64,000 bases of DNA from Phytoactinopolyspora limicola (lineage in GTDB: Bacteria; Actinomycetota; Actinomycetes; Jiangellales; Jiangellaceae), in NCBI RefSeq assembly GCF_011320225.1, contig NZ_JAAOEN010000004.1:362889-426888 (forward strand), in the 5' to 3' direction. Shown here in pieces: positions 1 to 60,771 of this stretch. The notes beneath the pieces are model-generated. The model ran no database searches. It was not told where the DNA came from and saw nothing but the letters and a program-made list of their open reading frames with translations. Each line of letters begins with the position of its first letter. Position 1 is the first letter of the stretch. The position numbers and the translations under genes were made by a program.

Positions 1-64
1 CTCCCGGTGATCATTGGCTTTGGACTACCGGATCCGGTAGTCAAAAGCCAATGATCACCGGGAG
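1..64. terminator. 64-bp GATC-edged palindrome (family A)
   Basis: The two 32-bp arms pair over the whole element with a single mismatch (G22 against A43) and meet at a central GGATCC. The same inner stem (ending in GACTACCGG) recurs at 10056-10125 and 48997-49060. The right-arm TGATCA at 52-57 supplies the TGA stop (55-57, minus strand) of the ABC ATPase gene to its right. The position directly at the gene end suggests a rho-independent-like or bidirectional terminator. There is no U-tract, so a processing or pausing hairpin is also possible. What lies to the left is outside the window. Confidence 0.75.
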
Positions 65-9135: not shown

Positions 9136-10068
9136 GTGAACTTTGCCAACGCCTTCCCGTACCGGCTGGACTGGATCGTCAGCTTCGTCGCCGTCGCGCG
9201 CGCCGGTGGTTTCTCGGCCGCCGCGAAAGCACAACACCGGTCGCAACCACGCATCAGCAGCCACATCGGCGCGCTCGAACGGGTGCTCGGCGCCACGCTG
9301 TTCGACCGTTCGGTGCACCCGGCAACCCTCACCCCCGAGGGACGGGCGTTGCTGCCACACGCCGAGGACATTCTGGCGCGGCTGGCCATCCTCGGTGAGG
9401 TGACCGGCGCCACGGGCGGCACCAAGCGGGGCGTGGTGCGAGTCGGGATGTACCCGAGCGCCGCGGCATTCCTGTACCCCCCGCTGGTCCGGCGGTTGCG
9501 GCACGCTGCCCCAGGGGTCACCGCCGTGCTCCGCGAGGGAGACACCCTCGCCTTGGACACCCTTCTGGCCGACGGCGACATCGATCTGGCCGTCCGTCCG
9601 GTGCTGCCACCGGTGCGCGCCGACCAGCTGGCCTACCGGCGCCTCTGGTCCGAGCCGCTGGTGGCGGTGGTTCCCGACGGGCACCCACTATCCGACGACG
9701 AGGCCACGACGTTGGCCCGGCTTGTCGGGTTCCCGCTGGTGACCATCGGTGAGCCGGACAGCGGCGAGCGCCAGTTCGAGACCAACCTGGCGTTCCTGCA
9801 AGCTGGCCTCCAGCCGAACATCGCGTTCCAAACCAACCAGCCTCAGACGCTGGCCGCCCTGGTCCGGTCCGGTCTCGGCGTCGGCTTCACGAACCGGCTG
9901 GCGATGACCACCACCGACCACCACGGGCTGGTGCTTGTGCCGGTCACCGCCGCACACGCCGAACGTCAGGTAGCAGTGTGGTGGCACGCCGCCCGGCCCG
10001 AGTCGCCGGCGACGACGCTGGTCCGCGATGTGATCGCCGTACTGCCACCACCCTCCCTAACCCCATGA
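9136..10068 (+). CDS. LysR-family transcriptional regulator
   Basis: A 310-aa regulator. The N-terminal winged helix-turn-helix (RLDWIVSFVAVARAGGFSAA, then SQPRISSHIGALERVLGATLF) is followed by the typical effector-binding domain. The GTG at 9136 is the only start that keeps the normal N-terminus; it has no Shine-Dalgarno sequence, but CATACT lies 12-17 bp upstream, so a leaderless transcript is possible. The likely target is the SDR-cupin pair upstream, although LysR genes are more often divergent from their targets. The stop TGA (10066-10068) is part of the TGATC motif of the palindrome at 10056-10125. Confidence 0.9.
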   Translation: MNFANAFPYRLDWIVSFVAVARAGGFSAAAKAQHRSQPRISSHIGALERVLGATLFDRSVHPATLTPEGRALLPHAEDILARLAILGEVTGATGGTKRGVVRVGMYPSAAAFLYPPLVRRLRHAAPGVTAVLREGDTLALDTLLADGDIDLAVRPVLPPVRADQLAYRRLWSEPLVAVVPDGHPLSDDEATTLARLVGFPLVTIGEPDSGERQFETNLAFLQAGLQPNIAFQTNQPQTLAALVRSGLGVGFTNRLAMTTTDHHGLVLVPVTAAHAERQVAVWWHAARPESPATTLVRDVIAVLPPPSLTP

Positions 10069-10125
10069 TCGTTGGCTTTTGACTACCGAATTCGGTAGTC
10101 AAAAGCCAACGATCATGGGGTTAGG
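10056..10125. terminator. 70-bp perfect palindrome between convergent lysR and xerC (family A)
   Basis: All 35 base pairs match around a central GAATTC. Both convergent genes end inside it: the LysR stop TGA at 10066-10068 and the xerC stop TAA at 10121-10123 (minus strand). Compared with the family members at 1-64 and 48997-49060, the inner stem is the same except for symmetric, compensated changes (GAATTC instead of GGATCC; GATCG/CGATC instead of GATCA/TGATC). It is a natural bidirectional terminator candidate. Confidence 0.85.
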
Positions 10126-11086
10126 CGCGTGGGTGGGCCTGCCGGTAGGCGGCCCGGAGCCGCTCGACCGAGACGTGCGTGTAGACCTGGGTAGTGCCCA
10201 GCGACGCGTGGCCGAGCAACTCCTGCACGGTGCGTAGGTCCGCGCCGCCTTCCAGCACATGGGTGGCGGCGGTGTGCCGCAGCCCGTGTGGTCCGAGATC
10301 CGGTGCCTGAGGAACCGCCCGCAACCGAGCGTGCACCATGGCACGCACCGCCCGCTGGCCGATGCGCCGGCCTTTGACTCCCACGAACAACGCCCGGCCC
10401 GCGGCGGCGACGGCAAGCTCTGGACGGGCCGCGTCGATCCACCGGCGCAAGGCACGTTCGGCAGGGACGCCATACGGCACACTGCGTTCACGCCCGCCCT
10501 TGCCGTAGACACGGAGCAACCGCCGGCCCGCGTCGATGTCGTCGAGGTCCAGCCCGGTCAGCTCACCCACCCGGATGCCGGAGGCGTACAGCGTCTCGAG
10601 GATGGCGTGGTCGCGGACCGCCACCGGATCACCGTCGGCCGCTTCGTCCGCGACGGCATCCAGCAGTTCGGTGGCCTCCGCCGGACGGAGCACCTCGGGC
10701 AGATCGCGCTGCGCCTTCGGCGAGGCCAGGCGGACGCCGGGATCGGTGCCGAGACGTCCCGTGCGGTGCGCCCAGGCGGTGAACACCCGGGCCGCCGACG
10801 CCCGACGAGCCAACGTGGTCCGCGCCTTCCCGCGGGTGTGCAGCAACGCGAGCCAGCTACGCAGAACGGCGACGTCGACGTCGGACACCTGGGTGGCGCC
10901 CATCCGGCTGGCATGCTCCAGGAGGCTGGCGACATCACCGACGTAGGCCCGCACGGTGTGGGTGGAGCGCCCACGCTCGGCCGCGAGATGCCGACCGAAC
11001 TCGTCGAGGGTCGCCGCCATGTCCGGAGGCAACTCCGCGGGCGCGGGCTCCGGCGTAACACCAGGATCCGCAGCGTCATCTCGCAT
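10121..11086 (-). CDS. xerC: Tyrosine recombinase XerC
   Basis: A 321-aa site-specific tyrosine recombinase that, with XerD, resolves chromosome dimers at dif. The N-terminal SAM-like core-binding domain spans about 22-105. The catalytic residues are visible: R172 (GIRVGEL), K196 (YGKGGRE), H267 and R270 (HGLRH), H293 (GHAS) and nucleophile Y302 (TQVYTH). The ATG at 11086 is used; a GTG six bases upstream is equally possible. It lies in the conserved xerC-dprA-comM neighbourhood, but a 2.9-kb oxidase gene now separates it from dprA. Confidence 0.93.
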
Positions 11087-19920: not shown

Positions 19921-19984
19921 CCTCGGTGATCATTGCCGCCTTCGTGTCGCTATAGCGACACGAAGGCGGCAATGATCACCGGGG
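19921..19984. terminator. 64-bp GATC-edged palindrome after trmD (family B)
   Basis: The arms pair over 32 bp with one G-T mismatch (19923/19982), around a central GTCGCTATAGCGAC. The outer part CGGTGATCATTG matches the edges of the family A elements. It begins 12 bp after the trmD stop and separates the rimM-trmD unit from rplS, so it is well placed as a terminator. The same GTCGC/GCGAC core is seen at 30702-30763 and 60712-60771. Confidence 0.75.
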
Positions 19985-28024: not shown

Positions 28025-28092
28025 CCTCTCTCATGATCATGAACACTTTGCCGTGTGATAGCACGGCAAAGTGTTCATGATCATGAGAGAGG
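28025..28092. terminator. 68-bp GATC-edged palindrome after the AAHS transporter gene
   Basis: Arms of 31 bp pair perfectly around a TGATAG loop (28056-28061). The transporter stop TGA (28083-28081, minus strand) is the TGATCA motif of the right arm. The inner stem (AACACTTTGCCGTG) differs from families A and B, but the TGATCA edge and the overlap with the stop codon are the same. It separates the transporter from ffh, both on the minus strand. Confidence 0.8.
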
Positions 28093-29394
28093 TGGGCGGC
28101 GGGGCACCATCGCGATCAGCACACATCCGAGTAACGCGAACCCGGCGAACAGGTAGAAGTTCCACTGGTAGCCGAGGGTGCTGGCCACGATGAAGCCACC
28201 AAGACTGGGGCCGGCGATCGCACCGAGCCGCCCGGTCCCCAACGACCAGCCGAGTGCACTCGCCCGACTGCCATCCGGGTAGTGCGTAGCAACGTAGCCG
28301 TTGATGAGGATCTGCGTCCCGGTGCCGGTGCCAGCGGCTGCCACCAGCACGAAGACCAACCCGTAGGGCAGGTCCGCGGACAGGCACACGATGGACCCGG
28401 CGGCCAGCAGGAACGCCCCGACGGCCACCACCTTGACGCCGATCCGGTCCGCCACGTGGGACATCGCCACGGTGCCCACGATGCCGCCGATATTGAGCGC
28501 CAGCAGGAAGCTCAGCGAGCTACCAAGCCCGTGTCCGGCGTCGTTCATGATCTTCGGCAGCCACGTGTTGAGCCCGTAGACCAGTAGCAGCCCGCAGAAG
28601 CTGGCGGCGGCGAAGATGAAGGTCGCGGCCACGTACCGCCGGGCGAAGAGTGGGCGCATCGCGGTGGTCAGACCGCGCCGGGCCGGGCCACCCGACTCCG
28701 CCGGTGGGCTGCTCGCGACGTCGCCTGGTGTGATCCCGTACTGGGCCGCGAGCCGCGCCGCCTCGTCGTGCCTCCCGGCCGCCCGGAGGAAGGTGATCGA
28801 CTCCGGCAGGTACCGCCAAGCGATGGGAACGACGGTCACCAGCGGTAGCCCACCGAGCAGATACATAACCCGGAAGTCGGTGTCCGGCAGCAGCGCCATC
28901 CCGACCAGCGCGGAGAGGATCGCGCCGACGAAGAACCCACTGAACATCAACGCGTTGTTGAGCTGACGACGGTGCCGCGGTGAGTACTCGACGGTGAGCG
29001 CCACCGCCGTCGGGACCACACCGCCGAGACCGATACCGGCAACGAATCGCAGCAGTCCGAAGACCTCCGCGTTCGGCGCGGCGGCGGTCGCCACCATCGC
29101 CAGCGAGAACCAGATGACCGAGAAGAGCATGACCTTACGGCGGCCGAGGATGTCGGTCACCGCTCCGACGACGAGCGCACCAACCAGCATGCCGATCAGC
29201 GCGTAGCTGCCGATGACGCCGGCCTGATCAGGGGTAACCCCCCACTCGTCGAAGGCGAGGATCGACGGGAGGGTGGTGCCATAGACGACGAGATCGTAGC
29301 CGTCGAAGACGATCGTGACGAAGCAGATGAGCACAGCGAAGCCAGCACTGCGCTGGCCCGCCGCGGGTCGCGCGACAGTCGTTCCCTGAGACAT
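28081..29394 (-). CDS. MFS aromatic acid:H+ symporter (AAHS family)
   Basis: A 437-aa twelve-helix carrier. Helix 1 carries the AAHS signature FDGYDLVVYG, the 2-3 loop has VTDILGRRKVM, and GIGLGGVVPTAVALTVEYSP lies in helix 4. These features are those of PcaK, BenK and MhbT/GenK. With gentisate dioxygenase next to it and on the same strand, uptake of salicylate, 3-hydroxybenzoate or gentisate is likely. The ATG at 29394 has AAAGGA at good spacing; the GTG at 29400 is an alternative. Confidence 0.92.
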   Translation of the reverse strand: MSQGTTVARPAAGQRSAGFAVLICFVTIVFDGYDLVVYGTTLPSILAFDEWGVTPDQAGVIGSYALIGMLVGALVVGAVTDILGRRKVMLFSVIWFSLAMVATAAAPNAEVFGLLRFVAGIGLGGVVPTAVALTVEYSPRHRRQLNNALMFSGFFVGAILSALVGMALLPDTDFRVMYLLGGLPLVTVVPIAWRYLPESITFLRAAGRHDEAARLAAQYGITPGDVASSPPAESGGPARRGLTTAMRPLFARRYVAATFIFAAASFCGLLLVYGLNTWLPKIMNDAGHGLGSSLSFLLALNIGGIVGTVAMSHVADRIGVKVVAVGAFLLAAGSIVCLSADLPYGLVFVLVAAAGTGTGTQILINGYVATHYPDGSRASALGWSLGTGRLGAIAGPSLGGFIVASTLGYQWNFYLFAGFALLGCVLIAMVPRRPPLS

Positions 29395-41974: not shown

Positions 41975-42042
41975 ACTTCGCTACCGCCAGATGGGGTTAA
42001 CGCCCGAATCCGGCGCTTAACACCATCTGGCGGTAGCGAAGT
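41975..42042. terminator. 68-bp near-palindrome
   Basis: ACTTCGCTACCGCCAGATGG (41975-41994) pairs perfectly with 42023-42042. After one mismatch the inner GTTAA/TTAAC also pairs, leaving a 16-nt loop. It has the same size class as the GATC-edged palindromes but lacks their TGATC edge. It lies in the middle of the repeat cluster, away from gene ends. Confidence 0.7.
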
Positions 42043-48221: not shown

Positions 48222-48922
48222 CCCATCTCGTCATCCGCGACCTACACAGCGGCTACCAGGGATCAACCGTGCTGCACGGCGTCGACCTCGACGTCCGGGG
48301 TGGTCGGGTGCTCGGGTTGCTGGGCCGCAACGGAGTCGGCAAGTCGACGCTCATCAACACGGTCTGCGGGTTGGTCCGCGCGTCGTCGGGATCGGTCCAG
48401 CTCGACGGCCAAGAGCTGGCCGGTCAGCGGCCGGACGTGGCGGCCCGGGCGGGCATCGGGCTAGTGCCACAGGGACGCCGGATCTTCCCCGACCTGACCG
48501 TTGCCGAGCATCTCGACGTCGCCACCCGGGTCAGCCGCGCGGGTGCCTGGGACCGGGCCGCCATCCTCGCGTTGCTCCCCCGGCTCGGTGAACGGCTCTC
48601 GCACCGCGGCAACCAGCTGTCAGGTGGCGAGCAGCAGATGCTCGCCATCGCGCGGGCGCTGCTGACCAACCCGTCGGTGCTGCTGCTCGACGAACCGTCG
48701 GACGGGCTGGCTCCGCAGCTGGTGGCCCAGGTGGGGGCGACCATCTCCGAGATCGTCGAGTCGGGGACCGCCGTCCTGCTGGTCGAGCAGGACCTCCGGC
48801 TGGCGTTCAGCGTCGCCCAGGAGATCGCGGTGATGGACAAGGGGCGGATCGTGCTGCACGAACCAACACGGCAGTTCCGCTCCGACGCCGCTCGCGCCCG
48901 CCGGCTGCTCGGCGTCGCGTAG
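48218..48922 (+). CDS. livF: Branched-chain amino-acid type ABC ATPase LivF
   Basis: A 234-aa ATPase with Walker A GRNGVGKST, the LivF-specific GIGLVPQGRRIFPDLTV, signature LSGGEQQMLAIARAL and Walker B VLLLDEPSDGLAP. The ATG overlaps the livG stop (ATGA). Last gene of the importer; the palindrome at 48997 follows after 74 bp of pyrimidine-rich DNA. Confidence 0.94.
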   Translation: MTHLVIRDLHSGYQGSTVLHGVDLDVRGGRVLGLLGRNGVGKSTLINTVCGLVRASSGSVQLDGQELAGQRPDVAARAGIGLVPQGRRIFPDLTVAEHLDVATRVSRAGAWDRAAILALLPRLGERLSHRGNQLSGGEQQMLAIARALLTNPSVLLLDEPSDGLAPQLVAQVGATISEIVESGTAVLLVEQDLRLAFSVAQEIAVMDKGRIVLHEPTRQFRSDAARARRLLGVA

Positions 48923-48996: not shown

Positions 48997-49060
48997 GTTC
49001 CCATGATCATTGGCTTTTGACTACCGGATCCGGTAGTCAAAAGCCAATGATCATGGGGAC
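48997..49060. terminator. 64-bp GATC-edged palindrome after the liv operon (family A)
   Basis: Arms pair throughout with only a G-T at 48999/49058 and meet at GGATCC. The stem (ATTGGCTTTTGACTACCGG) is the same as at 1-64, 49 kb away, but the outer flank is CCCATG/CATGGG instead of CCGGTG/CACCGG. It separates the liv operon from the LacI-headed operon (same strand). The rest of the 48923-49265 gap holds a pyrimidine-rich tract and the LacI promoter. Confidence 0.8.
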
Positions 49061-59725: not shown

Positions 59726-60718
59726 ATGAGCGGCGGGCGGGCGATACTGCGCGGGATCACCATCCCGATGGTGACGCCGATGTCCGCGCCGGGCCGACCG
59801 GACGCGGAGGCGGGCGCCGAGTTGCTCGCCGCGCTGCATGCCGCCGGGGCCGACGCGCTGATGCTGCTGGGCAGCAACGGTGAGGGTCCGCTGCTACCCA
59901 CATCCGCACTGGGTGACTTCGTCACCGACGCTACGGCGCGCTGGCGAGCGTTGGGCGGCGGCCCGGTGCTGGTCAACGTCACGGCTGCGGGTACCGACGA
60001 GGCGCTGGCCCGGGCCAGCGTCGTCGCACCCGCCACCCCGGACGCGCTGGTGCTGAGCCCACCCATCTACTTCCACCACCGCGAAGACGAGATCGTGGCG
60101 CATTACGCGGCCACCGCCGCCCTCGGCGTACCGGTGATCGTCTACAACGCGCCGCGGTACAGCAATCCGATCACCCCGGCCGTCTTCGATGCGCTGCTGG
60201 CCATGGACCACGTCGTCGGCCTCAAAGACAGCTCCGGCGACGCCGCGTGGTTCGCCGCCGCGGTGGCCGCCGCGCGTGAGCACCGGCCCGAGTTCGGGAT
60301 CAGCCAGGGCGCCGAGGGCCAACTACTCGCCGGGTTGAGAGCCGGAGCCGACGGGATCGTACCCGGCATCGCCAACATCGCACCGGCCGTGGCGGTGGCG
60401 CTGTTTCGCGCCTGGCTCACATCGGCGTCACCGGAATCCGCTGAGCCGGCCACCGTCGACGCGGATCAGCCGGAACGCTGGCAGGCCATCATCGACCGCC
60501 TCTGCGGCGTCCACACGATCCGGCCCGGTGTCCCCACCATCAAGGAGATCCTCTCGTGGGGCGGTCTGTGTCCCCCACACGTCGCCGCGCCGCTCCAGCC
60601 ATGCACCGACGACGAGCGCACCGCCCTGCGCTCCTACCTCGAACCTCTCGCGTCGCACCTCACGTCGCCCACCCTCACCTCGCCCACCCCCCACCTCGCC
60701 CACCCCCCACCTCGGTGA
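59726..60718 (+). CDS. Dihydrodipicolinate synthase / N-acetylneuraminate lyase family protein
   Basis: A 330-aa class I aldolase-type lyase. The Schiff-base Lys is in VVGLKDSSGD near residue 168 and the Tyr in IVYNAPRYSNP near 140; LGSNGEGPLL replaces the GTTGE motif of true DapA. Located between sugar-processing genes and a sialidase, it may split N-acetylneuraminate or a related keto-sugar acid; true DapA activity is unlikely in this context. The last 20 residues (HLTSPTLTSPTPHLAHPPPR) come from a CACCTC-rich repeat and run into the palindrome at 60712, which supplies the stop. Confidence 0.86.
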   Translation: MSGGRAILRGITIPMVTPMSAPGRPDAEAGAELLAALHAAGADALMLLGSNGEGPLLPTSALGDFVTDATARWRALGGGPVLVNVTAAGTDEALARASVVAPATPDALVLSPPIYFHHREDEIVAHYAATAALGVPVIVYNAPRYSNPITPAVFDALLAMDHVVGLKDSSGDAAWFAAAVAAAREHRPEFGISQGAEGQLLAGLRAGADGIVPGIANIAPAVAVALFRAWLTSASPESAEPATVDADQPERWQAIIDRLCGVHTIRPGVPTIKEILSWGGLCPPHVAAPLQPCTDDERTALRSYLEPLASHLTSPTLTSPTPHLAHPPPR

Positions 60719-60771
60719 TCGTTAGCAGGATCGGGTCGCTGGGGCGACCCGATCCTGCTAACGATCACCGG
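60712..60771. terminator. 60-bp GATC-edged palindrome after the lyase gene (family B)
   Basis: Arms pair throughout except the terminal T-G and a GG loop: CGGTGATCGTTAGCAGGATC..., with GGGTCGC/GCGACCC inside. The lyase stop TGA (60716-60718) is the TGATC motif of the left arm. The sialidase gene on the same strand begins 34 bp further on, so it probably has its own promoter or relies on read-through. Confidence 0.8.

Follow-up and report, generated by a model that had tools for sequence, protein, structure and literature searches.

The nearest described precedents for the hairpin repeats reported here are the BOX and SPRITE elements of Streptococcus pneumoniae. BOX elements are dispersed hairpin repeats that code the stop at the extreme 3' end of 36 genes (PMC3049150). 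They are modular, longer and unrelated in sequence to the palindromes of Jiangellaceae, which use one fixed TGA. The BOX paper reported no strong evidence for truncation (PMC3049150), whereas the C-termini of the Jiangellaceae proteins differ from their orthologues more often than those of controls do. SPRITE elements are terminator-like, enriched at convergent 3' ends and possibly co-opted as terminators (PMC3049150). The Jiangellaceae elements are likewise terminator-like repeats found at the 3' ends of convergent genes; however, SPRITE has a U-rich tract, while the Jiangellaceae elements have none, are fully palindromic and keep a constant foot. In Neisseria, inverted DNA uptake sequences form a terminator hairpin just after genes (PMC2397512). 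They share with the Jiangellaceae elements a constant short motif present as an inverted pair, but in Jiangellaceae the stem interior is element-specific. In the stretches read, the only lone 22-nt half-sites of family A (defined below) belonged to decayed palindromes.

REP/BIME repeats also resemble the Jiangellaceae elements: they too are short palindromes, dispersed and mostly intergenic, whose foot is constant. The foot of the REP/RAYT system is a GTAG-type tetranucleotide, whereas here it is TGATC, with nearly perfect arms. The Y1/RAYT transposase (PF01797) was found in 0 of 23 genomes (G000, the genome of the window, and 22 others; five positive control genomes were included). A REP/RAYT origin is ruled out by the lack of a Y1 transposase and by the foot, which is TGATC in 41 of the 42 palindromes of G000 with an arm score of at least 27. 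As the RAYT transposase is absent, these are not REP elements in the strict sense. Near-identical dispersed copies with terminal inverted repeats are a MITE-like trait; in the stretches read, no unpaired half-site flanks a transposase and no mobilising enzyme was found. Literature searches returned no published description of this Jiangellaceae repeat family. The palindromes are thus a newly recognised family, while stop-supplying repeats and terminator-like 3'-end repeats are already known elsewhere.

The window (the whole analysed stretch of 64,000 nucleotides) contains six TGATC palindromes, and the foot is the stop for 4 of the 7 gene ends facing them. Gene names were checked with Pfam and agree. 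The family A palindrome at 1-64 (core TGATC..GATCA 8-57) provides with its right foot the TGA (57-55, minus strand) of an ABC transporter ATPase gene (55-1140). The second family A palindrome (10056-10125, core 10066-10115, 35-bp perfect arms) lies between the convergent genes LysR and xerC. Its left foot holds the TGA (10066-10068, plus strand) of the LysR gene (9136-10068), and the final LysR residues, SLTP, are the outer arm and adjoining bases read as codons. On the other side, the TAA of xerC (10123-10121, minus strand; gene 10121-11020) is found within the right outer arm. At one side of this element the outer arm CCTAACCCCA contains the xerC stop, and at the other it codes the last residues of LysR. 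The XerC C-terminus is QAHPRA followed by the stop in the window and in 10 of 10 relatives checked (L164-L168, L172-L174, L177, L179). A family B palindrome (28025-28092, core 28034-28083) has 31-bp arms, a 6-nt loop and a predicted RNA fold with a minimum free energy of -73.2 kcal/mol (z -12). Its TGATCA foot (28078-28083, minus strand) contains the TGA (28083-28081) of an MFS/AAHS-type carrier gene (28081-29334). The fourth foot used as a stop is the left foot of a family C palindrome (60713-60770, 52-bp core 60716-60767), whose TGA (60716-60718, plus strand) ends a DHDPS/NanA-family lyase gene (59726-60718). The three gene ends that face an element and stop upstream belong to xerC, trmD and an ABC ATPase. 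The foot of the family C palindrome at 19924-19981 (52-bp core 19927-19978) lies 20 nt past the trmD stop, and that of the family A palindrome at 49000-49057 (core 49004-49053) lies 84 nt past the ABC ATPase stop (48920-48922). The initial annotation had placed four TGA stops inside the terminal TGATC of the palindrome and the xerC stop inside the arms, and the sequence and gene calls bear out every one of these coordinates. A 10-N assembly gap immediately precedes the window and adjoins the palindrome at 1-64; TGATC palindromes may break assemblies.

For the wider counts, 1.65 Mb of G000 (6.59 Mb, 40 contigs) and 0.8 Mb of a relative, G001, were read. The palindrome scan that yielded the 42 long palindromes of G000 covered these 1.65 Mb and was run without reference to sequence. 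TGATC sits at a fixed distance from the palindrome centre, the span from TGATC to its mirror GATCA being 50 bp in 47 cases and 52 bp in 11. The consensus of family A is TGATCATTGGCTTTTGACTACCG(GA/AA), and that of family B, which has a short loop, is TGATCATGAACACTTTGCCGTG. In family C, a 52-bp group (TGATCGTYGCC...GTCGCTA), the stem varies more. The overall core can be written CC(CA|GG)-TGATC(A/G)T-[variable stem]-A(C/T)GATCA-(TG|CC)GG, mostly with 49, 50, 52 or 54 bp between the outer foot edges; the bases flanking TGATC (CC, then CA or GG) are common to the copies. A second scan, seeded on foot pairs, also picks up imperfect copies such as C1:376411. It detected 65 elements in G000 and 24 in G001 (spans 49-54), compared with 0-9 for each of ten control pentamers. 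Family A half-sites number 206 in G000, 21 in G001 and 4 in G004.

The family is restricted to one clade. The pattern TGATCRT N34-42 AYGATCA has 276 matches in G000 and the reversed pattern has 0. It has 11-193 matches in 20 of 21 other family members, the remaining one being an incomplete genome (G007) with 0. In 295 other genomes of the phylum, 0-8 matches were found in each, and these were mostly non-palindromic. The family was identified as Jiangellaceae because the closest XerC proteins among named relatives are those of Phytoactinopolyspora, Jiangella and Haloactinopolyspora. In other genera the stems vary from copy to copy and pairing is kept (e.g. TCAACC/GGTTGA, TCCAGG/CCTGGA). G050, a genome from a different actinomycete family, has on contig 1 six copies of a palindrome of its own, TGATCATGCAATCCCGCCACC, which form an independent family and share the foot TGATCAT.

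The elements are concentrated at gene 3' ends. Convergent gaps hold 26 of them against 10.6 expected from intergenic length (p 4e-6), and divergent gaps 5 against 19 (p 3e-5). Between tandem genes, the copies are nearer the upstream stop in 29 of 34 and in 15 of 15 cases. Apparently divergent genes flank five to six elements, including those at L022 11636-11687, L032 12149-12198 and L042 14035-14084 (G000 C1), some of them near both starts; either short genes were missed there or these copies have a different role. Predicted RNA folds of the elements range from -55 to -73 kcal/mol (z -10 to -17), so a stable hairpin at the gene 3' end, a trait of canonical Rho-independent terminators, is present. 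The U-tract is absent (TTTT downstream in 2 of 82 readings), and no Rfam 15 match above the gathering score was found in the window. The elements are most likely bidirectional hairpins lacking a U-tract that are terminator-like or protect the 3' end, which is our best guess.

Use of the foot as a stop codon was counted on genes called with a simple codon-usage gene finder, with a gene end included if it faced an element within 400 nt. Of the 82 such ends in G000, 27 use the TGA of the TGATC foot as their stop, 49 have their stop upstream, at scattered distances of 4-206 nt, and 6 have it within the hairpin; no gene runs through an entire element. Offset 0 accounts for these 27 cases and every other offset for at most 3. 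G001 gave 11 exact, 17 upstream and 3 inside the hairpin (n=31). The other Jiangellaceae genomes, read as single 3-kb loci, gave 11 exact stops in 30, with L262 left out as a duplicate of a G000 element. Where the frame of a gene reaches the foot, the frames f0:f1:f2 occur 49:7:3, far from an even split, and 49 of 59 stop exactly (p about 1e-14); this excludes the one duplicate locus, with which the figures are 50 of 60 and p 2e-15. At C34:327386, G001 C2:26032 and L264, one element is the stop of both convergent genes. However, TGA is the stop codon used most and is often followed by TC, and plain TGATC near gene ends is therefore often a stop as well. Exact stops versus those in the next 30 nt number 27:23 (G000) and 11:10 (G001) for element feet, and 111:94 and 61:62 for TGATC outside elements, which are the same ratios. 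The offset-0 peak alone consequently proves no special mechanism: it requires only an in-frame TGA at the gene end and no extra machinery. Copies within coding sequence in other frames, on the other hand, are scarce for elements (5 vs 27) and not for plain TGATC (106 vs 111; p = 0.0004).

C-termini were compared between reciprocal-best pairs of G000 and G001. Genes stopped by the foot end in codons of the outer arm, for example CCC TCC CCA TGA (PSP and stop) or ...CC CGG TGA (R or SR and stop). Only 3 of 18 end at the same residue as the orthologue, compared with 249 of 417 pairs without an element (p = 0.0004) and 24 of 40 TGATC stops without an element. Genes stopping upstream match the orthologue end exactly in 10 of 19 cases (the partner lacking an element or likewise stopping upstream). 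Relative to element-free partners, and with the length outlier C34_278 left out, 10 proteins were shortened, 3 equal and 3 extended (n=16), by -16 to +7 residues and mostly by -1 to -6. For example, C34_267 ends in MPFPFSAALPR in G000, and in three congeners the protein stops two to four residues after MPFVP. Only 1 of the 16 element-free partners stops at a TGATC, whereas ordinary TGATC stops are conserved in 15 of 40. The element therefore mostly carried the TGATC in. C1_216 differs in this respect: its relatives end 1-6 residues beyond a common ALWV.R, and two of them (G001, G004) have a plain TGATC stop with no palindrome, so seeding by an existing TGATC is possible there. The suggestion of the initial annotation that native stops are replaced by elements landing at gene ends is thus supported, and in alignments with orthologues the proteins are shortened more often than extended.

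These results are probably best explained by clade-specific Jiangellaceae hairpin repeats that gather at gene 3' ends, where they supply TGA and replace the last codons. Copies would accumulate at these sites as terminator-like or 3'-end-protecting hairpins. Where a copy arises in the last codons of a gene or just beyond them, and its TGATC is in frame, TGA would take over as stop codon and the final codons would be those of the C/T-rich outer arm. If TGA were out of frame, the protein would extend into the hairpin, and such copies would mostly be lost; this loss would leave the sharp peak at offset 0. A more ambitious version, which we consider quite improbable, is a dual-purpose punctuation spread through the clade and replacing last codons, where the TGA in each foot halts ribosomes and the palindrome halts RNA polymerase, on both strands.

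Another explanation is that elements form or insert at a prior TGATC, often a TGA stop, which would make frame selection unneeded. The identical ratio of exact to nearby stops at TGATC outside elements fits this, as do the palindrome-free TGATC stops at C1_216 in G001 and G004. We nevertheless disfavour it as unlikely, since TGATC is so rarely the stop of element-free orthologues (1/16 vs 15/40), the end residue is so rarely conserved (3/18 vs 24/40), and the copies also have in common the bases just outside TGATC. The initial annotation had offered a different possibility, that ribosome release is coupled to hairpin formation; here TGA at both feet would be selected, with release triggering or gating the hairpin. 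The frame bias and the single elements that serve both convergent genes are in its favour, but the foot is used by only about one third of facing genes, the rest having their stops mostly 4 to 200 nt before it at no favoured distance, and the exact-stop ratio equals that of bare TGATC. The idea is also argued against by the position of a terminating ribosome, which would sit over the hairpin base: in E. coli, termination at a hairpin so near the stop is repressed by the ribosome (PMC4824070). Such coupling is not supported by these data and appears very doubtful. The feet could instead be paired sites for a nucleoid protein that binds GATC, for instance Gbn (GATCWT), their use as stops being incidental. 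GATCAT at both feet of families A and B fits the Gbn consensus (PMC9239103); however, the sequence is GATCGT in family C, in the 54-bp family of G001 and in the main family of G009, and the whole 50-bp stem is paired, beyond what paired protein sites need. Gbn binding is also very unlikely.

Under the favoured explanation, in which repeats take over stops, small repeats rewrite protein ends in a countable way, as each takeover alters the last residues of a protein. PSP or SR tails before the stop in Jiangellaceae genomes should accordingly be read with caution, as repeat-derived. In the stems, changes from the consensus are symmetric versus one-arm in 12 versus 14 cases (family A), 5 versus 11 (B) and 56 versus 17 (C), and mirrored arm changes are far commoner than expected from independent change. 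Arm pairing also runs outward into gene-specific sequence for up to 23 bp. In the element at C34:311482, the left outer arm, 19 bp long, can be recognised as the coding end of the gene itself (VATLTAP vs VADLTGP in the orthologue), and the right arm is an inverted copy of it. Template switching between arms is a published route to such symmetry (PMC8794818) and may be its source in these elements. In one-direction elements, G-T and A-C mismatches, compared as a sign of selection at the RNA level, number 21 vs 11, which is not significant. With foot and span constant across the clade and a stem that drifts with its arms matched, the family offers a natural test of how pairing is kept up, by selection or by template switching.

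The family of the element was swapped at no fewer than three orthologous gene ends (window 1-64, window 19924 and C12:31554). At the first of these, the G001 orthologue (C7) carries another TGATC family (54-bp, nested). Other palindromic repeats are also present. Window positions 41975-42042 hold a second palindrome family without TGATC, CTACCGCCAGATGG..GTTAA, which recurs at C1:418217, C1:680441 and C12:333827 (36-bp arms) and has a relative after an orthologous gene in G001. A third, imperfect hairpin repeat, GCGTCCTGCA..TGCAGGACGC, is found at L030 1419-1465, 9227-9272, 15732-15776 and 18364-18408, with dozens of short matches across four congeneric genomes.
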